Shown here in pieces: positions 6,146-59,215 of a stretch of 64,000 nucleotides of DNA. Within the stretch, counting starts at the first letter, position 1. Each line of letters opens with the position of its first letter. The stretch comes from Glutinoglossum americanum (lineage: Eukaryota; Ascomycota; Geoglossomycetes; Geoglossales; Geoglossaceae). The notes beneath the pieces were generated by a model that did no database searches, was not told the DNA's origin, and saw nothing but the letters and a program-made list of their open reading frames with translations. The translations under genes were made by a program, and so were the position numbers. The DNA lies in the NCBI GenBank assembly GCA_020080175.1, contig JAGHQL010000006.1, positions 62,001-126,000 on the forward strand, in the 5' to 3' direction.

Positions 6146-6910
6146 TCATGACCCGGCTCCATCGCCGCTCGGAGCCTTTGAAAAGGGATCCCAGCCGGGG
6201 TCGGTATGCCTCTCATACTCCATCGCATCCGCCACATACCGAGCCTCCTCCTTGCCATACACCTTTTCCACAAATGCCAACACAACGTCCATCCCCGCGC
6301 TAAGCCCGGAACCCGACCATATGTTCCCATCGACCACCCACCTTGCCTTAGGCACCCACTCTACCGACGGAACCCACTCCGCAATCTTTCTATATGCCAT
6401 CTTATTCGTCGTCGCTCTCCTCCCGTCTAAAATTCCCGTGCGTGCTACAACCAGGGAACCTGTACATACTGTTATTAGGTACTTGAGGCTCGGATACACG
6501 CGCGCGATGAAGTCGACCGTCTCTTTGATATAGGGTTCACGTGAACCGAAGCCTCCAGGGACGATGAGGACCTCCAGGTCTGCAGGGGGCGACGAGAATG
6601 TATGTGTGGGGACAACGCTCTGTGAGCATTGGGAAGTGAGAGGATTGTGGTCGCCTGGAGGACAGAAAGTGGAGACGGGTTCCTTGGAGGAGGCTATGAT
6701 GGAGAGGTTTATCAGGTGGCGGGTCGAGACTATGTTGAGGATTTCGAGGGGCCCGAAGGCATCAAGGGCTTGGAAAGCGGGGTAGAGGACGATGCCATAG
6801 TGGATGGGCCGGGTGGTTCCTACGGAAATGATAACTATCGTCAGTCAAGCCCATCTAATTGCGACGCCTCCGGGGGAATCCAGAAGCCTACCTGGCGGCG
6901 GACTCTCCAT
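6146..6910 (-). CDS. DJ-1/PfpI family protein (class I GATase-like)
   Basis: Two exons: 6892-6910 and 6146-6819; 230 aa, in frame. The sequence follows the DJ-1/PfpI fold: strand 1 IHYGIVLYPAF, LDAFGPLEIL, the turn LIVPGGFGSRE (about 96-106), then the nucleophile-elbow segment TVCTGSLVVARTG with candidate catalytic Cys125. After that come GILDGRRATTNK and WSGSGLSAGMDV. This layout matches fungal isonitrile-hydratase-like or transcriptional-regulator-like DJ-1 proteins, which act as small cytosolic hydratases, proteases or glyoxalase-like enzymes; the substrate cannot be read from sequence. The first exon codes for only six residues plus one base; its donor (GTAGGC) and acceptor (CCGTAG) are canonical. 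Its 3' end faces the end of the Zn2Cys6 regulator. Confidence 0.87.
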
Positions 6911-31676: not shown

Positions 31677-33105
31677 TCATAAAGCATCTACCGTCCAATT
31701 CGACGAGGTTGCGTTGTTGCTCTCTAGCCCAATGATCTTCTTATCGATAGACATCACGATCCTCGCCTCTCCCGGCGAGCCCACGACGGCAAGCCCGGCC
31801 CTGGAGCTCTTGCTGCTCTGGGAAAGGTGTTTCGCAGTGGAGAATGCGCCAGGGTCGGATCCATTCGTCGTTGGGCGTGTCTGAGCGGTGAGGAGTCCGC
31901 CATTGTCAACGTACGCTAGGAGAATCATGCTCCCTGATCCCACGGTTGCGACGCCGAGGTTTGCCCCCTGGGGGATGTTGTCAGGGGCCCCGCTCACCGC
32001 GACGGGGTTGTCGGACCACACTTTGTTCTTGTACGTCTTTGAGTACACTGCACCGCTCTCTACCTGGTAAAATAATTGCTCTTTCTCCTCGCCACCGTCG
32101 ATCCATCTGGCGACACCAATACCTGATCCGGGTCGCGCGAGGCCCAGATCCCCGGTGCTTCCATTATACCATGATCTTGAACGGAAATCCTTGGTCCCAA
32201 ATTCGCGAATTTGGTTGCTGGGAGCGGGAGCCTGGTAGTGGATCCAGGCCGAAGTGCCGTTCAACCATGTTAGAGATGCTAGCTGGGTATGAGGGTGGGT
32301 CTCGACTTCGTATTTAATAAGCGGAGAGAGCCTCCAAGTGTCATTGTCGTCATGCATGTAATCGATACCCGAGAGGAGGTTATCGTTTGTTAGGAAATAG
32401 ATAGACTGTCCTCCAATGCTGTCCAGCATCGTCAACGGGGTGTCGTCCTTAGCGCCCGTGCCTTCTATACATCGTACGTCACTTTGCGAAGCATCTGCTG
32501 ATATAGTGTGGATGCAGAGCGTACCACCCCCGACGTTATAGACGACTTCCGTCGGGATCCCGTCAAAGGGGCTAGGAGAAAAGTAGTTGCTCAGCTCAAG
32601 AAAAGCTGCTCCAAGGCCCGAATTGGGCACAGGCGGATTGTCAGCAAAGGACCGAGTTGTCACGGTCAAGGTCCCGTCTGGCAGGGACTCTCCAATGCCC
32701 CAAGCCCTCCATAGTATTCCATGGTGGACACTCAGCGCAATAATGAATACGAGGGCGATGGCAAGAATCCCTAGGGTTAGGATGAAAGACCAGAAAAGAG
32801 GATTTCGTCGTCGATTTGGAGCCCGACCTAAATGGCGGGTATGGCTCTGCTCTAGGTCCGTGGGCGGTGCGGCGGAGGGATTCTGCTGATTCGTCATGGA
32901 GTTCTGGCCATTCGGAAGGTGGTTGCCATCACGGGCCACTTCTAGTCCCGGCGCATTTTCACCATTCGCTCTAGACCCACTCGCATCTGCCGAGCCATTT
33001 AGATACCCATACGGAGAGCCATCTATTTAATGAACCCAAATTCAGCATCCTTACATCATTAGTTTATCGTAGGGCTGAAGGGCGTTGCGTACTTTCGGGC
33101 GCCAT
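31677..33105 (-). CDS. type II membrane protein with fucolectin-like ectodomain
   Basis: Two exons: a 13-nt first exon (33093-33105) and 31677-33022; 452 aa. Residues 1-78 are disordered and polar; a single transmembrane helix spans about 79-102 (LFWSFILTLGILAIALVFII) after the Arg-rich APNRRRN, so the C-terminus faces outside. The ectodomain resembles fungal fucose-specific lectins (AAL/FleA-type six-bladed propellers). It shows repeated blades of roughly 50 residues with Trp/Tyr-rich strands such as LASLTWLNGTSAWIHYQAP, NQIREFGTKDF, and GSGIGVARWIDG. Individual sugar-binding residues were not verified. Many Asn-x-Ser/Thr sites fit an extracellular domain. The unspliced frame starts at GTG; the spliced start at ATG (MAPENGSPYGYLNGS) has canonical GTACGC/AATAG sites and keeps frame, so I prefer it. 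Likely surface carbohydrate recognition (inference). Confidence 0.8.
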
Positions 33106-34545: not shown

Positions 34546-37188
34546 TCACCTGTCCTTCTTCCCCATCGGACTAACCCCCCTCCTCATAATCCCCAACCCA
34601 ACACTAACGCTCTTCTGTCTATCCCTTGTCCTTCTCCTCATCCTCTCTTCGTCCTCCTCATAAGCCCCCTCATCCTCACTCCCCACCAGAACATGCGGAA
34701 ATTCCTGCATCATCGGTGGCGGCTGCAACGAGGCCGTAGACCCGCGACGCGAAGTGAAACCCGAGGACGCAGGATCGAGATTACTGCTACTTTTTGGGCG
34801 TTCGAACTCGACGCTCCGGAACATCCCCACGATGGTAGCTGTGCGCGGCCGCGCCTCCGAACCCCTGGTTCGGGGCCTCGCGGCGCTTTCGCTATGGAGG
34901 AGAGAATCGAGGTACCGTTTCCGGGCCTGGAATTGCGCGCGACGTTCCTGTTTCAGGGCCGGGGAGCCTATCTGTTCGATGGCGAAACGGACGACGAAGC
35001 GGAGAGCGAAATAGATTTGTTCGCAGAAGATTAAACAGAGTAATAGTCCCCATTCTCCCATTCTCCGCCTGACCCCTTCTCCCCCTTCCGAGAATTCCCC
35101 TTCGACAACCTCCCTGTCCGAAAATAGCCACGCCAACGCCCCGCCAACGACGCCTCCCCCGTATGCTAATACCCCTAAATTCCCTCTCCATGGGCCTATC
35201 CCTTCTGCGCGCCAGGGCACAGGCCGCCGCATCTCGTAGCAGATCTTGACGGCGTCGGAGCGGAGTTCGACCCAGTTGTTGATTAGGAGGCAGAGAGAAA
35301 GGAGAGGCCAGGCGAGGGAGAAGCAAGTTAGGTAGCCAAATTGCATGACCATTTCACGGATGTCAGTGTGGACATCGTAGGGGGGTAAGGAGGCTTCATT
35401 AAGGGTTTGCTTCATAGAGGGAGAATCTTCGGTTGGGTTAAAGGGCCTTGGTGGGTATTGTTTTTGGTGCTTGAGTGCTTGTTTCGCTGCGCTAGTCTTT
35501 AGCCCGTCGAGGGTGCTGCTATTTTGGCGTAGGAGCTGAGACGTCTTTGCAGTTTTCTTGACCTTGCGAAAGAGCTCGTGGCGGAGATAGGGGACTACGA
35601 CTTCGAAGATCAGGTCGACGATCTGGGCCGTGATGCCGAAGTAGATCACCTCTCGGCGGAGCCGTGCTGGGTCGGTGCGGAAGGCTGACGTATGTTTTGA
35701 TGCCACACCATGGCTGGGCGCGAAGACGGAAAGGAAGAGGTGTAGGATGTCGAGGTAGGGCGCAATGACAGGGCCATAGGGTATATAGACAAACGCGACG
35801 AGATAGATTGGGAGGTACGAAGTGATGAGGTTAAAGACGAAGACTTTCTGCACCATCGCATCCTCGTACGCATCATCCGTCTCATAATTCTCATAATCCG
35901 TCAACCTCATCGCAAACCCCGTTAAGATCCCCGTGATCGTCGGCTCCAACGTCGCGAGCAAGCCCGTAGGGACATATATCAGAAACCGCTTTCCAGGCCC
36001 CTCGTACACCTCCTCGATAAAAATCTCAACGGCAAAACAAAACGCAATCACACCACCCAGCGCACACCCCGCCACGATAGCAAACGGAACCTGCAACGCC
36101 TGCCGTCCTAACCGTCGATATGGACTAAACCCTCTCTCCACCTCCCCATCCACCACCCGCTCCCAGTCAGCCTTGAACTCCGGCCGCGCCCTCTGGATCG
36201 TGGACACACCCCTTACACCCCAACGAATAGCGAGATCCGTTTCGTGCCGCGCCCAGAGTTCCGTGAAGATGATGGACCAGAGACACGTCAAGAGACTGAA
36301 CAGCGGCGAGAATGGCGGGAGGAAAAAGTATGCGAGAAGCCCCGTCAGCGCGGGGAAGAGGAGCGACAGGAAATAGGATTGGAGGAAGGCGAAGTAGAAT
36401 GCGATTTTCTCGCCGTGGTGGTTGCGGATTTTGTCGAGGTCCGAGACTGTGAGTATGTAGCGCGTGCTCCAGACGCGGAGCCATTCTTTGTTGAACTTGT
36501 GGTCGTGCAGAGGGAAGACGGCGTCGACCCAGCCGCATTCTCCGGGCTTGCTAGGTTTGGCCTCTTGGACTATGACTCCAGCACCGCCTTCGTCTTTTGG
36601 GCCCGTGATCAGTAGGTATACTGCCCTCAACCTTTCTGCCTCCGTAAGCGTTGCGTCAGCCGTATCCGAAGATTCTTTTGTTGGCAACGCCTGGCATACG
36701 CTATGGAGGTAGTCTTGAATTCTGTTTGAGTGTGAACACATTACATATGTTAGGAGTCTGGGGTTTAATTGGTGGTGGACACGGCTATGAGGTAGGTATA
36801 TAATTGGGCTCGTCACTTACCGCGACTGGTACACAGCGCTCAGCAGCATCTCCTCGTCGGCGACTTTGACAAATAGGAGTATGGAATCAGATTCCCCATC
36901 ACGGGCTTCGACACTCAGGCCGGCGGCATAGAGAGAGCTAACCAGGGCCTCGAAGTTTTGTTCCGAAGGCGAAGGGCCGCATAATTCAGCTATTTCAATA
37001 GTTTCTTTTAGAATTATTAATGTATATTTTTCTTTTTTTCCTCCCATTTTCTCTTTTAATCATATCGTGTAGTAGCGTGCATTGCATGTGGCTAGCTGGA
37101 AGGACTCACCACCCTCGACCTCGAAGCGGAACCGAATCACAAAGTCAGCCTCGATCGACCTCTCCACCGCCGGACTCAGTGGCGCCAT
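34546..37188 (-). CDS. TMEM16/anoctamin (Ist2-like) membrane protein
   Basis: Three exons: 37110-37188, 36821-36989, 34546-36721; 807 aa, in frame. The N-terminal domain is a ferredoxin-like module (ADFVIRFRFEVEG, FEALVSSLYAAGLSVEARD) as in fungal Ist2/afTMEM16. It is followed by the anoctamin core: GEKIAFYFAFLQSYFLSLLFPALTGL (TM1), LWSIIFTELWARHETDLAIRWG, RRLGRQALQVPFAIV, LATLEPTITGILTGFAMRLTDYENY, VFVFNLITSYLPIYLVAFVYIP, QFGYLTCFSLAWPLLSL, LLINNWVELRSDAVKICYEMRRP and FCEQIYFALRFVVRFAIEQ; about ten helices in all. Acidic residues typical of the Ca2+ site occur in the later helices (for example LLINNWVELRSDA, FCEQIY), but I did not map each ligand. The C-terminal tail is basic and Arg/Ser-rich, as in Ist2, which tethers ER to plasma membrane. 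Fungal members act as lipid scramblases or ER-PM tethers. Divergent from the metacaspase. Confidence 0.92.
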
Positions 37189-39811: not shown

Positions 39812-41224
39812 GGAACGAGTATAGTCATATAGTGATGGCATTTACTCCACTTGAGATAAGACAGCTTTTGTTTCTATCGCTCTTTTGTTTAGCTCTTCAG
39901 CTCTTCAGCATATCCAATTGAGTAGCCGTGTGTTTCCTCACGAATCGAGAGTTAGTCAAGGCGAGGCAAAATAACCGGGGCATTGCGGCTTTGTGGATTA
40001 CCGATACGAATATATATGATGAACGGGGGTTCTCCCTTTTTCCCGCATTTTTCCTTCTCTTGGTTGTGGTAATAACTAGGCCGCACGGCCACCCTGTGTA
40101 GTGGAGATATTTTTTTTTTGGAATAATAGGGATCTCTCATTGCGTAGCTCATCTAGGTGGAGTTATCCGGCCCACTCGTCATCTCGCCGGAGGCGGAACC
40201 TCTGCGGCACCGTGTGCCCTTCCGTGCGGCCTAGTGAAGTTAGAGGAAGACACCCCGGCGAAACCCGAAGGAATGGCACCTAGGGGTCGCTTAATATACT
40301 CTACCCGCCCAAGTGGTTGCGCTGCCAATTCGTTAGACTGCCTTCCGGCGACTCACTTCACTTCTGTGTCTTGACTGTGATATCAGGGACGCTTAGCTGG
40401 GCTTGTGGCATTACAGTGCCGTTTCTGCCTTGACGCTACCATTTTACACGGTGGCAATACCGGTGTTTTAGGTAAATATATACATATATACGTGCTCGGG
40501 CTAAGCTAAGAGATAGTCTAGAGAATTGATAACTGCTGCGAGAGACCGACCTCCTAGCTCTAACCTGAAAGGTCTTCGAGTGGCCATGCACAACCGCCAC
40601 TGGTGCCCGGGTCCTTTTTAAAGAAAGTAAGGAAAGTCTATAAATAGAGGTGACAGTTAATCTGATTGGCTCCTCGCGAGTCGCCATCTTTTTCATTACT
40701 TTTTTTCTCGAGGTGGTAAAGGAACGGCAGAACTGCAGCTCGAGCAATAAGCATAATTGGAAGATAGCCAGCTGCTCGAGGCTGCAGATCAGGGGTTTGG
40801 GTGTTATTTAAGTGTCTAGCAAGTAATGAAACCGGCGTAACAAAATACTCGAGGCTGGAAATTAGGGGTTCGGTTGTCATTAGAATTTCTAATCATGGGA
40901 ATAATGGAATATCTGGCCGAATTGTGGGTCAGCTTCAGAACGGCTCTCTGCGATGGGGTGTTTATGGTTGTAAGCATACCCGCAGCGGCAGTGTTGGCAC
41001 CCGATGTCCGGTTTCAGGGCATCCGAGCCCGAGTTTAGTGGCTCGTATTCGTAGCCGGGTTGGTTGAGTCCTCGTGCCTGTTTTATAGAGCATACGTCGT
41101 TGGAGGGGTCTTTTATCGAGATATATATACAGCCTTCTTCACACCGTGGTGTCTCTTCAGTAGCAATGACTGTTTCGAGCTATTCACCGCTATCAGTCAG
41201 TGGGGTGGTTTGCATTCGGTATTT
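39812..41224. other. intergenic, no supported gene
   Basis: Spacer between the 3' ends of the metacaspase (plus) and the kinase fusion (minus). No supported gene; small frames only. A short TA-rich run lies at about 40478-40491. Confidence 0.5.
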
Positions 41225-44200
41225 TCATGGGAGGTGGGGGGTACTAACGGAACCATCCGCTCCCCGTAAGGTATATATTGATCCGTGAAGGGAGTAAATG
41301 GTGAGGCGAGATTCTGGATAAGACGTTGACATAACGATAATGCGTTGGTGCTCGGAACCCGGGGAGTTGTTGGATGGGAGTGCGATATCCCTTGGGAAGA
41401 GCGTCACGGAATCTATTACCCCGCCGCCGGCATCAAGTACGAGAAGCGTCGTGATATCTGCTGTCCCGCCGCGGGCATCGAGTACGAAAATACCGTCATT
41501 TGTCCTCTCCTGGGTGCTTGGGGTGGTGGTTGGAGGGTTCCCTGGACTGAAGTAGTTATATAATCCCCGATGGCGGCAAGCCGGCAGATTAAAGGGTTTT
41601 GAGTAGCCGTTAGAGGGATTGGCGGCTGTGCATGTACTCGATGGATACCTGTGGGAGCGGGGTTAGCTTTAGTGGGGGCTTTTAAGCTATGAGTAGGGGC
41701 AATGCACATACCCCAGGGTAGCTCCCTTCTCGAGCGGCTGCCTTACCACGGCCTCTTTAATTGCAGCCCATAACTGCTCCATCTCACTATACACGCGCTC
41801 TGACCCTAAGTCAGGCCCCTTCGTAGGGTCAGCCCCAATTTCAAGGCGCAGCTCCGCCGGGCCCCATATCACCGCTGTCTGACCGTATTCGCCCGTTGCG
41901 TTTGGGACGGCCGAGCTCTCAAGAAGTAGCTTTAATATGGTTTCATGCCCCATCCTCGCGGCATCCGATAGCGGTGTCGATATCCGACCGCGTTTGATAT
42001 TGTCCGGGGCCCACAACAGCGGCGTCCGTCCATACTTACTATCCCAGGACTCCGGTTTAGCACCTTCGAGCAGCAGCTTGGACATGGCTCCATGCTCCAC
42101 GAGCTTGCCATCTGTGGGTATTGGGCTAGGTGAATCCATATCCGTACCCTGAGAGCCACCCCCCCATCGGGGGAGATCCCTCATGGAATCCAGTCGCATA
42201 ACCTCCGTGCTGGAATACCCGGGAGCGTCTAGGCGATTAGTGTTCTGGGCATCCCTGACTCGACGCATCGCTGTGTGTGGAGACAGCTTCAAACTAGGCT
42301 TGAGGCTCTCTGAGGGTGGTGGTAGGGGCTGTAGAAAATTTATTAGTAGGAGTATTCGGTGCAGTTCAGCTCGCTTTGGAGGGCTAACTAACCGTAGGTC
42401 TAGGGCCACGTGGCGTAGACTTAATAGCCTCAGCGGCGAGCTGAGAAGGGAACACTATTCGGTTTCGATTGTACACGAAATCGTCCTTCACTAGCCTGGC
42501 CTGCTTCGCGCAGAAAAGACCTAGGTCATGGGCCGCGTCTAGGGCCGATGTGTGGTCGGGCCCCAGCGTCTTCTCAGCCCCCGTTAGAGCTCGAATGGCC
42601 TCCCTCCCATTTCCAGGTTGCAAGGCAGGGAGGACATCCAGGCGGTCAGCCTGACGGTGTATCATACTGAAACTGGTATGGCCCCGTGAGCGTCAGTGGA
42701 ACTGCTGGTTCTATGGGTGGTTTATACGAGCAACTTACTGTATAGTGGGCCTCCCAGTTGGTCCGCCGGACAGCAGTGGTTGGGGTGGTTGCGCTACCTC
42801 CTGGGCGTGTGTGAGGTGTCTTCGGCAATGGCCTTGCGGTGGCACCGGAGTAAATAGTTGGTCATCTTTAGTCGAGTGCGTTGGAAGATAGAAAATAACC
42901 CGAATGATTCTCTTGGCGATGGTAGAGCTAGGGTATGATCCATGGTTTGTGCGAGGTGTAGCTTTGCCATAGATGATCCGTCTCTCACGGGTATCTCTTA
43001 TTGTGTTGGTGGGACAGCAGCCCCAAGGCGCGAGCCGTGAGACAAGATTGGAAGCTGTCGGTCGCATCCTGGGATTAGGGTTGGTCATATCTGCAATCGC
43101 ATCTAGCAACGCGAGTCGGGGCATATTATCTGGTTGGACTGTCTGATTTCTCAATATGTCGACCCATTCCGTTATCCTCGGTAGATTCCTATGGAATGCC
43201 GTAAACGAGTCACCGTCAGACGAAAATGAGCGGAACTCATCTAAGGTCCTATTGGAAAGGAGAGTTGCCATTTCTATGAAGACGCAGCCTAGGGACCAGA
43301 TATCGGCGGAGTCCTTGATAGGTTTTCTGTTATAAACTTCCGGTGCACAATACCTTGGAGTCATCCGTGTTGAGCTGTAGGGGCGATCACCGGAGCGGAC
43401 CGAAATTCCAAAGTCCGCAAACATCACTGTATTTCCGGAAACGAGTATGTTTTGTGGTTTGATATCGTTGTGTCTAACGCCTTCTCGGTGGGTATACTCG
43501 ACCGCGTGTGACAGACAGCCAGTCCATTTCCTTAGAGTGCCAGGGTGGGCATGTCCAGAAACAAGGCGCCGAGGGTATTCGGCCATGAACTGCTCTAGAT
43601 TGCAGTCAGCAACAGGAGAAAGAAAGACTGCCAGGGCCCCCGGTAGCCTGTACGCGCCCACAAGTCGAACAATGTGGCGGTGGTTCAAACGCTGAAGAGC
43701 CTTCACCTCGTTCATGGCATCGGAGAGGCTAGACTTTTGTTGGTAGGCGATGTACTTCCTGGCAAGATTGACCTTCCCGCAGGTCACTTCCTGTACCACA
43801 CCAGATGATCCAGCGCCAAGGCGGCGACCTGGAGCAAGGGCTAATTCTCCAAGATTAAGGCCCTCATCCAGTATTGCCCAATCTCCTATTGCCGCTAAAT
43901 CTCCTGTTGGATAGGATAAGCACAGTGAGCAAGGAACGTGACCTCCTATACTCTTTGTGCGGCACCACCAACAAGAACCTCGACGCCTTACGCTCTTCGC
44001 GTTCTGCCTTTGTTCCGGGGTCAACGGGCCTCTTAGCCCGCGTAAGCCTGAGCGTCTAGTACTCATCGAGGAAGAAGAACTATTTGGTAACCCAACCGAT
44101 ATGGGTTGTGATTTATAACCCGCCGGTCTGTAGACGTTGCTCTGGTCCTGGGGGTCTAGCGTCGAGGGCTGAGATTCCGGTGGACATGCGAGGGGTGGGT

Positions 44201-45858
44201 CAACGGCAAGTTGTGTTGAGAGCATATTGCGATTGCATTGCCTTCCCCCTTGCGACTGATCTCCTGGGCTAGGTGCCCTTTGACGTCTCTCACAGTTCCA
44301 TCTTGGACCTTGCGAGTTGTCTGGTTGGCCATCTTTCGGGCTATCTTCTGAACAATCCCATGAGTCATGCCCTGGATCCCATCTAGGGCCATCCCCTGGG
44401 CCGTCACCCTCGTCCTCGTCTTGATCTTCATTCCCACTATCTAGGTCTTTGTGGGTGTGTGGTCGCTGCGGCCCAACCCAAGGGTCTTGCCACTCCGACA
44501 TGTCACAGCCCTCAGTAAAGTGGTTCGCGATATGATCAATCCTCTCCGACCACGTTCTCAGCTCATAGCCGCAAAAGCCGCACTGCTTGTTGAATTCAGT
44601 AGCGACGGAGTGGCACCAGGATTCCATATCGGGGGTAATGAGCGATTGGTTGTGCTTCTTGGCTAGGTGTTCCCGGAACTTGTCCTTCCTCTTGAATGTT
44701 CGCTGATGCGCAGGCTTTTCTAGGCATTGCTGGCAGTTGTGCTCCAGGTCAAGGTGCTCGACAGCCGGATCCATTTCGCCACAAAAGACACACTTTATAT
44801 TATCTTCGGTAAACGAAAATAGTAGCCCATGGCAGCAAATCCACTCCGTCTGAGGGCAGTGACGTTCCTCATGCCTCTTGAAGTCTGACCTAGATGAGAA
44901 CGCAATGTCGCATCTGTAAGTGCACTGAAACGGCTTAGTGAGAGCCCTTTCCGCACGTCCTGTGAATAGTCCGTCTGAGGTTAGGCAGGGGCTTTCCGTA
45001 GCCCACTGGGAGGAGATTGTGCTGTTGGATGAGGTTGCCGTCAGTGTTTGGTAGCCTGAATCAGCATTAGAGGAGATCGTAAGGGGGCTCGTCTGCAAAT
45101 TCCACGAAGCTTCGGGATTCTCCAGATCCCGACGTCGGTGGTTGTTGAACCAGTTGTGGACCCGGTCATATGTTAGCCTGCATAGCGTCGCGAGGGCTTG
45201 TTTATCTTGGCGGCTGGGGTAAGGGTCTAATTGCAGGCAGAGTTGGAGAATTTTGTACGCCCTTTCGGATATGTGAGCCCGATGCCGAACTCCCATTGAA
45301 TACGTTATGCGCCCCGCAGAACGGACTGTTTTAGCCCCTACTTGGGCCCGTTTCTTCAAAGGCATCGGCCTTCCACCCATCAGGGAGGCCCCGCTATGGC
45401 GTAGTTCGTTCGAATGCCTGTCTAGGCCAGCCGCATGTCCCCCGGCGCTAGCTTGCGGGATAAACGGGACTGCTGAAGTGTTTTGGGGAGGCGGCCCGAG
45501 GTTCGGGATGCAGCCGTTAGCTGGGAACAGGCCCTGAGCCTCCAGCGGACTAGCAGGGAGATCTCGGTCCCACTGCTAGCGCCATAATGTCAGTGGCAGC
45601 TCAAGATACGGAGGAGAAATGGTGACTCACGTAGGAGCCCTGAGGCGCATCTAGGTTGGGCATGGGTTGCTGAGCTGGGGTTTCCGGTACGCATCCGAAC
45701 GCAAGGCTACTGCTCAAGCCCTGTTCAATGAGAGTGACGGAGCAATCCATCTCAATCCCGTCTTGGAAATACGAAGTCGGTGCACCTTGTGACTGACAAA
45801 ATTCGCTGCTCCAGCTTCCTGGAGTTTCATACCAGCCGCTCGGGGGGCCGCCTGCCAT
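41225..45858 (-). CDS. homeodomain-C2H2-kinase-TPR-ankyrin fusion
   Basis: Five exons: 45631-45858, 42739-45572, 42393-42666, 41712-42328, 41225-41648; 1458 aa. Domains in order: a TALE-like homeodomain at about 168-226 with LQLDPYPSRQDKQALATL and the recognition helix VHNWFNNHRRR; C2H2-type fingers at about 291-315, 337-356, 356-384 and 406-428; an acidic linker (about 451-470); a four-Cys zinc-cluster-like motif, RGSCWWCR...PCSLC (about 608-627). A Ser/Thr kinase follows at about 658-923: Gly-loop GAGSSGVV, Lys682, Glu698, catalytic loop HNDIKPQN with Asp779, DFG at 796-798, APE, and ADIWSLGC. A TPR-like segment comes next (REAIRALTGAEKTLGPDHTS), then two degenerate ankyrin repeats (YGRTPLLWAP, HETILKLLLES). 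Catalytic residues look intact except HRD reads HND. The last intron has GTATGT, GCTAAC and CCACAG signals; if it is not spliced the protein stops at 41687 (1325 aa). Likely nuclear or signalling; role inferred from fungal NLR-type parts. Confidence 0.82.
41350..41490 (-). repeat. 45-nt tandem duplication in the last exon
   Basis: On the minus strand two adjacent 45-nt units code for VLDARGGTADITTLL and VLDAGGGVIDSVTLF. The shared core is GATGCC(G/C)GCGGCGGG. Read forward on the plus strand they give PAAG(I/I)(K/E)YE-like strings. Confidence 0.7.
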
Positions 45859-47773
45859 TAGACCTAGTGCCGCTGACAGAATAATAAGATGATGTGATCA
45901 GAAATAACAGGTAGGTCCTAGTTAGATCGTTGTGAACTAAGGTAACCGGGATGCCGCTCAGCTCTACAAAAATAGGGTATCCTAACGACCGCCGATGGAG
46001 GCGGAAAGGAACTAACTCCGAGTTTGGAGGACTAAAGAAGTCTTATCTGAATTCTGGTGGGGATAGAGTCCTTTTGACGCCTGAGGAGCGGCGATTTCTT
46101 GACGTGGGAGGGCCGCTACCTAGGGCGGCGACCATAAGCCGAGGGCAGCAGAAGTGATCAGGGCAGCACCAGGGCAACCAAGAGCAATCAGGGCAGAGAC
46201 AATGACCAGGGCGAGAGTAAGCAAGGCTCGCGAGGCTGAGCCAATTATACCCGTTTTTGGCCCACCATCCCCGCTGCACTTCAACTCGTATATTTCCAAT
46301 GCATTCTACCTAAATCCATTGGTTCGCGTCTCTGAGCCTCGAAACCGCTTCCGTGAGTTGACCAAAAGAAGTTGCAAGATGTGTGGCGAAACCCATCTCC
46401 GGCGTGCAGCTGTGCTGGTGGTTTCTCTCTTTTTGGGGCGGGTCATGAAAAACCTAAGCGATTGGCAATCAAACCTTCTCGGTTTTCGCTATGTTAAAAT
46501 ACGAAGGGACTTCGCCCGGTCGCGGTCTCTTTCCCTCTTGATTGCTAAGGGCGCAGCTGTGGCGAAGGGGTGCGTTTGCGTCTCGAGTAGAGGGTCCTGG
46601 CAGTTGCCGGCACACCCCGCTTTGGTTCAGACACCTGCGAACGGTAGCGACAACACCTACCTAAAGCCAGTTAAAGAACTTAAGCGACAGTCCTTCACAC
46701 ACTTCCTACTACAACGCTGGAGCTGGGTTAGGTAGGCTTTATAAATCTGGAATTTCAATCACCTGTAAAATCAACAAATGTACTTACTATCTAGGTCGAG
46801 TGGTTAGACGATAGACTACTCACCCTGACTTAATTATCGGAAATGAAACCGCAAAATTCCATCCGCGCATAGCGAAAGATTAAAAGAAGCTAGTGGGACT
46901 AGTGGAACTACAGTCATATGCGAATTATTTCTTGCAAGGTGGGGGTCGTCCACGGCCTTTCTGCATGGATAGTAAACCTGAACACTCGAGCCACGCCAAT
47001 GCTAGTATTAGCCCAATATTTCAGGCCGTACAAATAGAGTTTCCAGTGAAAGACTCCTGCTACGCTTTGGCATTTCAATGCCGGTCGCAGTAGTAACTGC
47101 GGTCACAGAACGGATATCACTCGGAGCGGGTATTTCGGTGGAAGAGATATCCAGGCCAATAGACACTTAAATTTTGCATTGTAGACTAAGAGGAGATTGT
47201 TGGTTTAACGGCTTAGGGCCTGCCGGCTGGACACGCGTCAGAGTTTGAAAATGCAGCTAAAAGTGGCTCTCAGGATCACGATCTGGTATCAAAACTATGT
47301 TTGAAGATGCGCATAGAACTCATAGAAGCTAATTGGTCATATCAAAGTAGGTTCACCGCTAAAGAGCTATCGTAGAGACAGGGTATGAGTTATGTAGGCT
47401 GTGCCGTCGCGGGATCCAAATTGGCTGGTGCCCTCAACTGCTACGTATGTTGTTCAATATTTCGTGTCCTCCAAGCGAATCGATCCTCAGCCTTGTGTGA
47501 CCCACACGAATCTAGCTTGACCACAGCCACAAAATGGCTGGATGGTATCCATTCCGAATGCACGCCACCGTGCCCGGAAGAAAGCTTATTGGGTCGGTTT
47601 TCATCGATGGTGTTGAGTAAGAACGTCACGAGGGCTTCCGGGTGAGGAAGAAAACAAACACTCACCGAGTTGACTCTCATTCCTGTAGTCAAGGAGACTA
47701 TTTAATTCGCAGCGCCCGCTCTTGTCATAGGGGCTCTCAACCAGTCCCAGCCGCCGGCATAGAATATCGCACC
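45859..47773. other. divergent intergenic, kinase fusion / RRM-SesB-vWA
   Basis: 1.9 kb between two divergent genes. The open frame on the plus strand (46154-46735) starts at GTG and has no motif. Near 46145-46215 there is a degenerate purine-rich repeat around CAGGGCA/ATCAGGGCA. No gene supported. Confidence 0.5.
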
Positions 47774-49779
47774 ATGTCACAAACAGTTCGCGTCTCAAAC
47801 TTGCCTGAGCCTACCACCGAACAAGATATTGGGTATTGGTTCGAAATCCATCTTAAGCGCCGACGGGGGAACGGCCCTGTTGTCTGCAAGGTTGGGCAGC
47901 CTTGTTCCCAATCCGGAAGGCCGTTGAAGATCGCAACGGTTACATTTTGGTCCCCTGCCCTTGCGAAAGATGCCTTAAAGCTGTGAGGCAAAGATTTCTT
48001 GCCCGCAGCTGGAGGAGCTGCACGAGCGATTGAGATCGATGATGTATTCCGTGACTTAACGACCCTTTACTCCTCGACACGTTCTCCGATGGGAAGCCCT
48101 ACAGCGGAGTAAGTCGCTTAAACTGCCCTAAATCCCTTTTGAGTCGGCAGTTATGCTTACGTTTAGAAATCGTTCTAGTTTCGTTGCCGTCCACGGTCTT
48201 GATGGCCATCCATGGAATTCCTTTATCGCTCGATCCAGCGATAGGAAAGGAACGATGGAGACTATGTGGCTGAGGGATATCTTTCCTGAAATCCTCGAGG
48301 AACAGGGCATATATCCGAGGATTATGACCTTCGGGTTCAATGCTAATGTCTGGGTTGATAATTCAACTCAGACAACTGAGGAGGCTGCGGAGAATTTGGT
48401 CGGCAGTCTCAATGCGGAAAGAGCAAGTGTACGTTCAGTTCTCGGCTCTCTAGTAGCCTTCGAGAATACATGGCTGACCGGCTCAGGATCCTTCAAGGCC
48501 TCTTTATTTCTTTGGCCATAGTTTGGGTGGATTGGTAGTCAAGCAGGTATGTTGGCATACCCCCCCGTTCGTGAAGAAGCTCGGCTGAGATACTCAAGGC
48601 GGCATGTAACGTTGTGAACGTTGGTATAGGCGTAGACGCCAGCTTCGAATCCCCAATCAAGGGGTGTTTTTTCTTTGGTGTGCCACACAAGGGGTCTGGC
48701 CTCGCCGACCCCTACGGCAACATGTTGATGACGATGAAGACAGTGTTGTTGGGGGGTGGCCCAAATCCCAATATGGTGAAAGACTTGCGTCAAAAGGGCA
48801 ATACAGTTTCCAGAATCTCGATGGAGTTCAACTCGGTTCGCCGGATTCATGGCATCAAGACTATAAACTGCTACGAGCAGAGGACGATCAACGGACACAA
48901 GGTGGGATCCTTGCGGTGTTTGAGCCGCCTAAAGTTTTACTAATAAACTCGGAATAGGTCGTCGAGAAAGACTCAGCTATCTTAGATTGGCCAGACACGG
49001 TGGGGTCGTTTGGCTTAGACGCTGATCACCGAGACATCGTTAAGTTCTCTGGTACGTCGCATCCGGGATTTCAACCTATTATGTCAGCTGTTATCGATAT
49101 TGTGCGGTCGGCGATGGCGCAGCCACATACGCCTACCCCTATTGTTCCTTCTGGCCTGGTTTTACCGGAAGACGGGCCTCAGGAGGAATTAGCTCTTTCT
49201 AACCTCCGCCGATTCGACACTATCTTCTTAGTTGACGACTCTGGTTCCATGCGTGGACCGCGCTGGAGGGAAACCGCCCAAGCACTCAAAGAAGTCGCAA
49301 AACGCGCCGTCAAATACGACAGGAATGGAGTCGACATCCGCTTTTTGAATAGCACCTGGGAAAACCGTGATAACTTGGCGAATGTCAGTGATGTAGCAGA
49401 AGTCTTCGCCCGGGTGATTCCAGATGGGGCAACCCCAACAGGAGACGCCCTGGATACTGAACTTTGCGATTACATGGTCAAGTACAGAGCTGACCGGCGG
49501 ACTAAGAAACTAAATCTCATTGTCCTCACCGGTGGCGCTCCAGAGTGTCCCCAAGAGGTCGAGGACGCGATCGTCAAGTTTGCCAAGGAACTGGAGTCTC
49601 TCCACGCAGCGAAGTCGCAGGTTGGCGTACAATTCGTCCAGGTCGGTGACGACCCCGAGGCCACCACTTTCCTTAAAAGTTTAGACGATAGCCTTCAGAG
49701 CAAATACGGATTGGATAGAGATGTAAAGACCCATCCGCCGAGCAACGATTTAGGAATCTCCAGAACTAACCATATATAG
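47774..49779 (+). CDS. RRM-like + SesB hydrolase + vWA protein, one in-frame TGA
   Basis: Five exons: 47774-48108, 48179-48428, 48487-48546, 48599-48901, 48958-49779; 590 codons including the stop. Residues 1-70 form an RRM-like module (TVRVSNLPEPTTEQDI, IATVTFWSPALAKDAL) that in fungi often precedes SesB domains. Next is the linker AIEIDDVFRDLTTLYSS and a SesB-type alpha/beta hydrolase: FVAVHGLDGHPWNSF, MWLRDIFPEIL, RIMTFGFNANVW, the nucleophile elbow FFGHSLGGLVVKQ (Ser207) and FFFGVPHKGSGLA. The C-terminal third is a vWA domain: DTIFLVDDSGSM with MIDAS residues Asp409, Ser411 and Ser413; DGATPTGDAL supplies the Thr; the usual third-loop Asp is Gly (LTGGAPE). A TGA sits at codon 71, in frame, inside otherwise coding sequence (KL-stop-GKDFLPAAGG). 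It cannot be removed by a normal intron, so the gene is either broken, mis-sequenced or starts further down. Confidence 0.75.
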
Positions 49780-54787: not shown

Positions 54788-57700
54788 ATGTCGATATCAT
54801 CTCTCACAAAGGTCTATCCTACTAACGGGGAAACTGATGCCACCGAACTTGAGTGAGTTTGCGAGACTGGACTTGTTGTTTGCTAACTTACTCGGTTCCA
54901 AGTATTATCGCTGTTCACGGGCTTGGAGCCGATCCCGGGGCCACTTGGATGGCCCAAGATGACAAGGATGCGGAGCCCACTGATAAGAGTACCGCCGATG
55001 GTGTGACTTGGTTGAGCCACCAGGAGATGATGCCAGCATTCGTTCCAAATGCCCGAGTCTGGACTTTCAACTATAGTTCTGACTGGTCGCAAATCTCACC
55101 AGTTCGGCAACTGCGCGTACTTGCGGAAGAGCTGCTGACAGCCCTAGTCCATTGCCGAGAGCAAGTTGAGTTCCTACCTGCTGCCTTAACTTCAGCTAGC
55201 ATTTACTAACCACCCCAAAGGAAAACGAGAAGCGGAGGCCACTAATATTTGTTGGGCATAGTTTTGGGGGATTAGTGATTGAACAGGTTTCCTTCAGTCC
55301 GTCCGTAGGTGTTCGCAACCTTTACGGTCTAACACCAGAGGTAGGCATTGGCATCTGCAGGCACAGTAAACAGCATCTCCCAGTATATCCTCCACGCGAC
55401 GGCTGGAGTGATCTTTCTCAGCACCCCCCTTCGTGGCTCAAACCCCGCGAGTTGGGCCAGGATGATCGCCAATTCCGCGAAAGTACTGGGCTTCCAGTCT
55501 AGCGATTATCTCATGAAAGACTTTACTGCGAGCCCAAAAGTGCTAGCAGATCTGCTGTACGACTTCAGGGTTACGATCAATCAGCCTTTGCTACAGCTGA
55601 CTGTCGTGTGTTTTTATGAGCAGCTGAGAACCAGCGTCGACAAAGATTCCTGGTTCTCAAGTACGGCGGAGATTATGGTAGCGGCAATTCCCTCTCCCAC
55701 TTATATTATGCTAACGGAGGGTTAAGATTGTTGATGAGGCCTCAGCTTGCATCGATGGGCACCGCAAGATCCCGCTTAGTACATCGCACACTAAGATGAA
55801 CAAATTTGGTCAACCAGACGACAAAAATTTTCAACTTCTCGCTGGATGCATCCGTGAGCTTGCGAGTCGTGCTCCTGGGGTTCTCCAAGCGAGATACTAT
55901 GGTATGTTTAGGAAGAAGGACCCAATTACGAGAACCCCAATTAACAATTGTTAGAATTAGAGAAGGCTCTCAAAGCAGATAGCCCAAGTGCAACGCCCAC
56001 TCCCTGATCTCTTGTGCAGATGCTAATGTATGGAAGCTCCCGTGGATGCTCCTTTTCGTGAGTGCGTAGCCGCTCTCTTCCAGACGGATCCGCGGGACAA
56101 CTACATGCAAACCCAAGAAACTGGGAATAGGAGAGCAGATGGGACATGCGAATGGGTATTACAGGAAGAAAGTTATGCTGGTTGGCTCCTAAGCAAACAG
56201 ACCGCTATCCTTTGGATCGGTGGAGCTCCCGCTATGGGAAAAACTATGGTTGCATCTTTCCTCGTCAACGAAATGGGTATCAGGGCACGACAGGAAACAG
56301 ACATGACGTTGGCGTACTACTTTTGTGACGCTAGTGATGAGAGACGGAACACAGCTGAATCTGTTTTACGCAGTCTATTGATGCAGATCCTTCAGCAACG
56401 TCCTGAGCTATTCAGGCACTTGAAATCGGAGTTCGATATCCAGAAAACCGTCCTATTTACATCTGGTGGTGCCATCCACACCCTGTGGAGGATTCTGCGA
56501 GACATTCTTGATGACCCTGAATCCAAGGATGTATACATCATAATCGATGCCCTCAACGAGTGCAAGGTGGAGTCCCGGCAGGCCTTTATCGATCACCTTG
56601 GGGATCTAGCTAGTCCATCTTTGAGACCCGAGAGCTCTACCGAGGATACCGAACCTCCGAGGACAAAAGTCCTGATCACTTCCAGACCCCTTCATGGAGT
56701 GGAGGAAAGGTTTAGTGGCAAAAATGCCCGATTTCTGCGATTGGACGTAGATATCATTAGCGCGGACATAGAGAAGTATATCCAGGCGAAGGTTGGCCTA
56801 TTAGACGCGAAATTTTATCCCCCAACTCGGCAAGGTCAAATACACGAGTACCTCAAACACAATGCAAAGGGGTCCTTTCTCTGGGCATCTCTGGTCCTGA
56901 ACGAGCTATCGAAAGGAACCCTGCTAGAGCCGGATGTGGAGTTGTCTCAAATACCAGCGACGCTCAGCGAGTTGTACGCGCGGTTTATCCACCGGATCGA
57001 CGGTAGGCACACCGATACCGTTCGTGAAATTCTTCTCTGGGTTGCAACGGCAGCTAGGCCACTAACAACTAGAGAGCTAGCCGACGCTATTATGCTGAGC
57101 CGGCAAGCTAGTGTTCCCAGCCCACCGGAAGAACAGGCTCTCAAAAATCTTGCTGTTACCCTAGACCTATGTCGGCCATTGGTTCAAATTCGAGAAAAGA
57201 CACAAACAGTCCATTTCATTCACAAAACGGTTAAGGATTACCTAATCGCAACCAACATAGTGCCGCCAACCCCCAGGGCCAACTTCGCGGCCTTCCTTGG
57301 CTGCTCTCAGTATCTATCCGCTCGTCTTGGTGCGGAGTTATCAGGAGAGGGTACTTCACCAGATCAAGACCCCTTTCTAGGATATGCCTGCGCTAATTGG
57401 CCTTGGCATGCTCAATTGTCGGGGAATGTTACCCTTACAATAACGGACTGGGTTCCGGGCTGGTTTCTTATGGATCCTGCGAAACGCGAAGCCCTGTCCA
57501 ACTTGCCTTACCCAAGCCTGCACGATGACACCACACTTCCACGAACACCAACACTGCTTCAACTCACCGCATATCTTGGTCTCGCCTATATTCTGATGGC
57601 GATTGATGAACAGGGGTTGCTGGACCACGAAATATCCACTCGCGATGGCCAGGGACGTATTCCTCTACACTGGGCAGCTGAAATGGGCCACGATGAGACC

Positions 57701-59215
57701 GTCAAACTGCTTCTTCAAATGGGCTCAAACGCCAACGCTCAGGATAACATGGGTGATAGCCCACTCCATATCGCCATTCTCCATAGCCACGAGAAAGTCG
57801 CGGAGGTGCTACTAGATGGAGGAGCAAACCCAACTTTGCCCGGACGAAATCAAAAACCACCACTTCACCTGGCTGCTGAAGTGGGTGGCAAAAGAATAAT
57901 TAAGACTTTACTTAGCCATCACGCGAACCCGAATAGTGAACTACCCGATAAGACGACTCCACTTCACCTAGCGGCACAATGGGGCCACACATCAGCAATC
58001 ATACAGCTATTGTCTGCGGGTGCCAACATAAACGCTTTCAAGCCCTTTGGAGAGAGTGCATTGCATTCCGCTGTAAGAAACGGCCATGAAGAGGCGATGT
58101 TATCACTGCTTGAAAGAGGGGCGAATGTTAACGCCCTAACATCTGACAAGACTTCACCCGAGGATCTTGTACCCCGAGAAGGAAAGATGCACTACCAGTC
58201 ATACACTTCCACGGCTAGCTGGACTCCTCTACATATCGCTGCTATAAAAGGATACCGCCAGATCTGCGAGATTCTGCTTCTCTATGGTGCCGACCCAGCG
58301 AGCCAGACTTTAAAAGGGAAAACACCCCTTCAAGTCGCCGTTGATCAACACGAGGAAGGGATCGCGGAGCTGCTAATAGAGGTGGACTCTTCCCTTGCAG
58401 CAAACGACATCCTCCAAGCTACTATCCAATGTAGAAGCTACAGGTTGGTCCGTTCCTTCTTCGCCGATCCCTCAGACCGGCTGGACATTGGAGCAGCGCT
58501 CCGACTCTCAGCAGAGTCAGGAGATCCAACGCTCGTTGAAATAACCTGTGAGAAGTTCACCTCCGACCAGATTAAAAAGGGAGCATTCGCTGCGTGCTCC
58601 GCCGCCCTTACTTTGAACAGGCCAGATATCCTCGAGACGCTCATCCATAAAGGAGCCGACATCCAAGCAATAGGCCCATGGAGAAAGACACTCCTCCACT
58701 TGGCCGTAGGGGCAGACAATCTCACTCTTGCCACTCTCCTCATAACCCACGGTGTCAATGTCTCCGCCCAGGACGGCAGCAAATACACCCCCTTACACAT
58801 AGCGGTTGAACGCGATAACAAAGATATGGTCTCCCTCCTCCTCCGTTCAGGTACGCAAGTCGACCTCGCAGACGTGGAACGCTGCACACCACTACATTTC
58901 GCAGCACATGCCGGTGCGGGCGATATCGTAGCGATGTTAGTCGATGAAGGCGGTGCAGATATGAGTCTGAAGGACGCGGATGGAAGGACAGCACTAGATC
59001 TAGCGATCACGAAGGGTTATGCAGGGATCCAAGGGTTTCTGGAGGATAGGCGGGAGTCTGAATGGATGACTGATGACAGCGATAAACTTGAGCCTATCCG
59101 GGAGGATGAGCTTAGTCCAGGCCCTAAGCGGAACAGACGAGTCACTGCCTCTGGGCAGCGGGTAATGAGTGGGCCGCGGAGTTCCCGTACTAAGTTACGC
59201 CGGAATGGTCGATGA
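54788..59215 (+). CDS. SesB-NACHT-ankyrin NLR
   Basis: Seven exons: 54788-54852, 54903-55164, 55221-55286, 55345-55677, 55727-55901, 55955-55987, 56037-59215; 1370 aa, in frame. N-terminal SesB-type alpha/beta hydrolase (about 20-300): LDIIAVHGLGADPGATW, RVWTFNYSSDW, nucleophile elbow FVGHSFGGLVIEQ (Ser123), GVIFLSTPLRGS, KIPLSTSHTKMNKF. NACHT module: the lead-in CVAALFQTDPRDNY, Walker A GGAPAMGKT (373-381), Walker B VYIIIDALNE (Asp482), sensor-like VLITSRPLHG, and the winged-helix part VHFIHKTVKDYL. From about residue 845 there are some eleven ankyrin repeats (RIPLHWAAEMGHDETVKLLL, TPLHLAAQWGHTSAIIQLL, TPLHIAVERDNKDMVSLLL), then a basic tail. Fungal NLRs of this form sense non-self and trigger the N-terminal effector. 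The small 33-nt exon 6 and its flanking 49-nt intron are the weakest point; without them the hydrolase and NACHT parts would be separate genes 22 bp apart. Confidence 0.88.

Follow-up and report, generated by a model that had tools for sequence, protein, structure and literature searches.

Fungal transcription factors that pair a homeodomain with C2H2 zinc fingers are a described class, and the gene considered here joins the features of such a factor to a Ser/Thr protein kinase. It lies on the reverse (-) strand at 41225-45858 of a 64-kb stretch of Glutinoglossum americanum DNA (contig JAGHQL010000006.1; hereafter the window), and all coordinates below are positions within that window. Factors with C2H2 fingers and a homeodomain were counted in 115 of 191 fungal genomes, with up to 27 in Sclerotinia sclerotiorum (Shelest 2017, PMC5415576), and a type that combines a Zn cluster, C2H2 and a homeodomain is given there as ascomycete-specific and present in 64 of the 191. 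In a Phoma, five of nine homeobox genes carry C2H2, and knockout data indicate roles of PsHOX6 and PsHOX9 in growth and in conidia; MGG_01730 of Magnaporthe oryzae is said to have no effect (PMC11121360). C2H2 motifs are also marked in the homeobox figure of PMC2779367, and Colletotrichum homeobox proteins are reported with rhodanese, CENP-B and 6-phosphogluconate dehydrogenase-like domains (PMC8406175).

Protein kinase domains likewise turn up in composite proteins. Fungal NOD-like receptors (NLRs) are known to carry a PKinase domain, though rarely (PMC4986451, PMC9815663, PMC12258605), and among 12 Sordariales NLRs that carry it, nine are described as good decoy candidates (PMC12258605). Kinase-like domains of fungi are fused to cell-death modules (PMC12881547), and the kinase fusion proteins of the Triticeae include Lr9 and Sr43, the latter having arisen by gene fusion (PMC10260397). 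Among the matches listed from the open-licence literature, no homeodomain–kinase fusion was found in the portions that matched, and the corresponding portions of PMC10056406 and PMC3499355 contain nothing on this pair.

A homeodomain and a kinase in one exon

The frame at 42738-45575 (-) is stop-free for 946 codons, of which exon 2 takes up 945 with an acceptor at 45576 or 944 with an acceptor at 45573, in agreement with the single 944-codon exon proposed in an earlier sequence-only reading of this DNA. By comparison, the longest open run among 40 random 64-kb sequences with the dinucleotide make-up of the window was 350 codons. Because the homeodomain, the C2H2-like motifs and the kinase all lie within this one exon, their joining is independent of splicing, as that reading had also argued, and the profile search it had proposed recovered both the homeodomain and the kinase above their cut-offs. 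Pfam was scanned with exons 1-5 one by one, so that a junction-spanning domain could be missed. The features of exon 2 are as follows.

45129-45287 (-): homeodomain (Homeobox_KN / Homeodomain), from Pfam and PDB matches
44859-44924 (-): C2H2-type motif 1, C-x3-C-x12-H-x3-H, best zf-C2H2 stretch
44739-44792 (-): C2H2-like motif 2, pattern only, short spacing
44652-44735 (-): C2H2-like motif 3, pattern only, long spacing
44520-44582 (-): C2H2-type motif 4, C-x2-C-x12-H-x3-H, by pattern
44295-44453 (-): acidic linker, 32% Asp/Glu over residues 451-503
43920-43973 (-): four-cysteine motif C-x2-C-x10-C-x2-C, by pattern, with the glycine loop about 33 residues further on
43038-43829 (-): Ser/Thr protein kinase domain, from Pfam Pkinase, PDB alignments and motif positions

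The homeodomain was matched by Homeobox_KN (E 1.1e-9, 38.4 bits against a gathering cut-off of 24) and by the Homeodomain profile (E 4.8e-9, 36.3 bits against 22.9), and in the PDB by extradenticle (1.1e-5), DUX4 (2.6e-5) and PBX1 (3.2e-5). Extradenticle and PBX1 are three-amino-acid loop extension (TALE) proteins. The domain had been called TALE-like, and here only its identity as a homeodomain held: the alignment to extradenticle has a three-residue gap between helices 1 and 2, and the Pfam Homeodomain match places 53 residues on 53 profile positions, so the domain lacks the three-residue extension that defines TALE proteins. The residues WFNNHRRR are kept, and the recognition helix looks intact. 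A structure model of the homeodomain region was weak (predicted local distance difference test, pLDDT, 69.2) and showed helix 1 followed by one long helix in place of helices 2 and 3.

Downstream, four motifs fit C-x2-4-C...H-x3-5-H by pattern, two of them with x12 spacing, and the zf-C2H2 profile marks two stretches at E up to 5, with motif 1 the best. The acidic linker was confirmed. What had been described as a zinc-cluster-like motif is present as the C-x2-C-x10-C-x2-C arrangement, but a Zn2Cys6 zinc cluster was rejected as its identity, there being four cysteines only, no Zn2Cys6 pattern and no Zn_clus entry at E up to 5, a negative limited by HMMER filters that remove most matches with E above about 0.1.

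The kinase was matched by Pkinase (E 9.3e-40, above the gathering cut-off). Its glycine loop (LGAGSSG), ARK Lys, Glu in NEVKAL, HNDIKPQN Asp, DFG, APE and DIWSLG were all located, bearing out the glycine loop, lysine, catalytic aspartate and DFG that had been picked out before. The domain looks complete, with all catalytic residues in place, and may be active. Matches to NCBIfam kinases were to bacterial and archaeal models, far under their cut-offs, and a structure model of the region built without an alignment reached a pLDDT of 33.6.

Exon structure, C-terminal region and neighbouring genes

The predicted spliced protein has 1,461 residues from five exons and four introns, with the frame kept throughout. 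The introns are 55, 66, 64 and 63 nucleotides (nt) long in order, all GT–AG and all with CTRAY-type branch sites; alternative acceptors at 45573 and 42667 likewise keep the frame.

45631-45858 (-): exon 1, 76 codons (228 nt), ATG at 45858; no Pfam match
45630-45576 (-): intron 1, GTGAGT donor at 45630, CTGAC branch, CTAG acceptor; frame kept
42739-45575 (-): exon 2, 945 codons uninterrupted, with homeodomain, C2H2-like motifs, linker and kinase
42673-42738 (-): intron 2, GTAAGT donor overlapping the stop of the open frame, CTGAC branch, CAG
42393-42672 (-): exon 3, in frame over introns 2 and 3
42495-42596 (-): one weak tetratricopeptide repeat (TPR)-like unit of kinesin-light-chain type, from TPR_12 and KLC1
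42329-42392 (-): intron 3, GTTAGT donor, TACTAAT branch, CAG
41712-42328 (-): exon 4, frame kept
41894-41977 (-): ankyrin repeat, PF00023 at E 1.5e-6, above cut-off; PDB matches to ankyrins and designed ankyrins
41649-41711 (-): intron 4, GTATGT donor, CTAAC branch, CAG
41225-41648 (-): exon 5, up to the stop; no domain, two in-register VLDA-GG--D copies
40889-41179 (-): possible exon 6 (weak), 96 codons and a stop, if an intron at 41248-41180 replaces the stop at 41225

The introns were set against a control in which the ends of open stretches of at least 80 codons were searched for a nearby intron that continues in frame for at least 80 codons, using a list of donor hexamers chosen after the sequence had been seen. 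With the donor at most 25 nt before the stop, such frame-keeping introns occurred at 5 of 4,854 random open reading frame (ORF) ends versus 8 of 207 in the window; three of the eight are introns 2–4, and a fourth is 41248–41180, which leads past the end of the gene at 41225. This setting missed intron 1, which has its donor 27 nt ahead of the stop. Extending the distance to 40 nt gave 7 of 4,854 random ends versus 12 of 207 window ends, five of the 12 being introns 1–4 and 41248–41180; elsewhere in the window the count was 7 of 202, and some of these seven may belong to real genes. A codon-usage model was trained on four open frames found elsewhere in the window, among them one with no known domain, and in all five exons it scored the frame of the gene model best of six. 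By dinucleotide ratios over 39–60 kb, the 43–46 kb portion groups with a NACHT gene at 56–59 kb.

Of C-terminal repeats, a single weak TPR unit is seen together with one or two of the ankyrin kind. TPR and ankyrin exons had been said to follow in frame, and the introns do keep the frame and the ankyrin match is above its cut-off; the description of these as NLR-type repeats was not supported. No Pfam match to NB-ARC or NACHT was found in exons 1-5, and a Walker A pattern is absent from the spliced protein. Lacking a detectable nucleotide-binding domain, the protein is not an NLR.

No recognisable domain was found in exon 5 by Pfam, nor a useful match in the PDB, and its identification as an HSP70 fragment was dropped on the same grounds. 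Two copies of its VLDA-GG--D motif stand 45 nt apart, in frame, at 41420-41484 (-). A dispersed repeat was also considered and rejected, the 20-nt motif (at most 3 mismatches) occurring twice in the window, both times inside exon 5. The possible exon 6 gave no Pfam match, and a 44-nt direct repeat, its copies 77% alike and 73 nt apart, lies downstream of the gene at 40775-40891.

Several other genes of the window could be assigned. A single 1,062-codon frame at 56027-59212 (+), 10 kb from the fusion gene, encodes an NPHP3_N/NACHT-type domain and a winged helix, with many ankyrin repeats in a row, as in a typical fungal NLR-like gene. A TMEM16/anoctamin scramblase lies at 34549-36816 (-), with afTMEM16 and nhTMEM16 as its best PDB matches, a fungal fucose-specific lectin domain (E 6.1e-13) at 31680-33026 (-) and a DJ-1/PfpI family protein (E 1.5e-12) at 6149-6844 (-). 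The NACHT–ankyrin, scramblase and lectin genes, together with the short GT–AG introns and their CTRAY branch sites, mark the DNA as fungal and probably as that of a filamentous ascomycete. The neighbouring region at 47621-49776 (+) has a VWA domain (E 2.9e-7) and two weak matches below their cut-offs, to DUF7552 (18.7 bits against 27) and to RRM (16.5 bits against 20.7); its HGLDGHP motif recalls SesB-like lipases, for which there was no profile match.

Competing readings of the gene

The reading we favour, if tentatively and at somewhat short of an even chance, is that of one fungal gene formed by fusion, in which a homeodomain and C2H2 factor of known type was joined to a Ser/Thr kinase of the HND kind and to short C-terminal repeats, yielding a DNA-tethered kinase or transcription regulator. 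If expressed, such a protein would enter the nucleus, where the homeodomain and zinc fingers would bind DNA and place it on chosen promoters. The kinase might then be switched on by a partner that delivers a signal at the C-terminal TPR/ankyrin part or at the linker, or by dimerisation on DNA, and would phosphorylate itself or nearby chromatin or transcription proteins as its putative substrates, altering how the bound genes are expressed. The route from recognition to transcription within a single protein that had been suggested earlier would take this form. It is rather unlikely that the gene stands for a conserved fungal class of homeodomain/zinc-finger factors with a kinase of their own and a partner-binding tail, in which a single polypeptide would unite signal reception, phosphorylation and promoter choice and need no cascade beside it.

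Several results weigh against the fusion reading. HRD is replaced by HND, so the kinase is of the non-RD type and its activity is not guaranteed; many kinases of plant innate immunity are of the non-RD type. The C2H2-type fingers claimed by the sequence-only reading, although four can be written as patterns, stay below the zf-C2H2 cut-off of 25.2 bits (22.5 for the finger region alone, 16.2 for the whole exon). The TPR match is weak, TPR_12 reaching E 0.027 and 15.1 bits against a cut-off of 30.1, and the PDB match to kinesin light chain 1 has a whole-chain E of 2e-5 that sums three stretches, the best single one at 0.11. Relatives of the 946-residue frame were not found in viral contigs (1 pattern match) or in prokaryote genome contigs (8), none being confirmed by tblastn, in two sets that are not fungal and therefore uninformative on fungi. 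Codon bias is weak, the exon scores falling among the values spanned by 127 further open stretches, and the dinucleotide ratios of exons 3-5 (41–43 kb) resemble their surroundings, unlike those of exon 2. Because of these last two results the C-terminal exons are less certain, whereas the homeodomain–kinase link is firm.

The softness of that C-terminal part is also what a rather unlikely explanation would lead one to expect, namely that the gene is either a copy in decay or a recent chimera, specific to its lineage and with no settled function, in which a rearrangement joined two genes and the C-terminal exons are fading. The weak TPR, the few ankyrins, four cysteines where a zinc cluster has six and the dinucleotide make-up of exons 3-5 are consistent with this, as is the loss of zinc domains documented in dual transcription factors (PMC5415576). 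Nevertheless, 945 codons run without stop or frameshift, all catalytic residues of the kinase are present and four introns keep the frame, which weighs against this explanation. Alternatively, the protein may be a kinase fusion of immune type or a self/non-self sensor, its transcription-factor half serving as an integrated bait for an intruder protein whose contact would free the kinase to signal. It would then operate in the manner of the Triticeae kinase fusion resistance proteins and of fungal sensors that carry repeats. Pkinase is listed among the N-terminal domains of fungal NLRs (PMC4986451, PMC9815663), kinase domains of Sordariales NLRs have been proposed as decoys (PMC12258605), and kinases fused to unlike domains give resistance in the Triticeae (PMC10260397); in addition, a TPR-like unit and ankyrin follow the kinase here, with a NACHT-ankyrin gene 10 kb off. 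We nonetheless consider a sensor unlikely, given that neither a nucleotide-binding domain nor Walker A was found in the protein, that the repeats are few, and that the recognition helix of the homeodomain looks intact, which a bait need not keep.

Far less probable than either is that two separate genes have been taken for a single one, with the end of a homeodomain-C2H2 factor and the start of a kinase both within the linker. There is room for such a boundary in the 204 codons (about 600 bp) between the last finger-like motif and the kinase (44498-43886), but this segment is stop-free in frame, as were 9 of 20,000 sequences resampled from its dinucleotides, and the other five frames hold 3 to 13 stops. 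For this reason, and since about 33 residues separate the four-cysteine motif from the glycine loop, two genes are very improbable.

Kinases usually reach transcription factors via cascades or docking. Should the fusion reading hold, the gene would provide a natural DNA-addressed kinase, raise the question of whether a kinase at a promoter suffices for control, and help to trace the mixing of transcription-factor and immune-type modules in fungi. A lone chimera, by contrast, would have little importance beyond domain shuffling.

Comparison with described systems

Like the dual-specificity C2H2 and homeodomain factors of PMC5415576, the protein has a homeodomain and C2H2-like motifs together, with a four-cysteine motif further on. 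It departs from the types in the matched portion of that source in running on into a full kinase and repeats, in having a cysteine motif that is not Zn2Cys6 and in C2H2 motifs below the Pfam cut-off. PsHOX6, PsHOX9 and MGG_01730 share its pair of DNA-binding modules, and a kinase domain is not reported for them in the corresponding portion of PMC11121360. The Colletotrichum proteins show that fungal homeobox and homeobox-C2H2 proteins likewise acquire enzyme domains, a kinase not being among those named in the main-text section (PMC8406175).

On the kinase side, fungal NLRs with PKinase combine, as here, a kinase with C-terminal repeats, whereas the present protein is without a nucleotide-binding domain and has a DNA-binding half. 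Sr43 and Lr9 also join a kinase to unlike domains; they are plant proteins for which the matched portion of PMC10260397 does not name a homeodomain-C2H2 partner, and common descent is not claimed. The order of domains had been put forward as undescribed, and this applies in part: the half with homeodomain, C2H2 and, in some types, a zinc cluster is a described fungal type (PMC5415576), and what is unusual is the kinase. As a sequence, the gene is a real fusion, and an unusual one, between modules of two known kinds.

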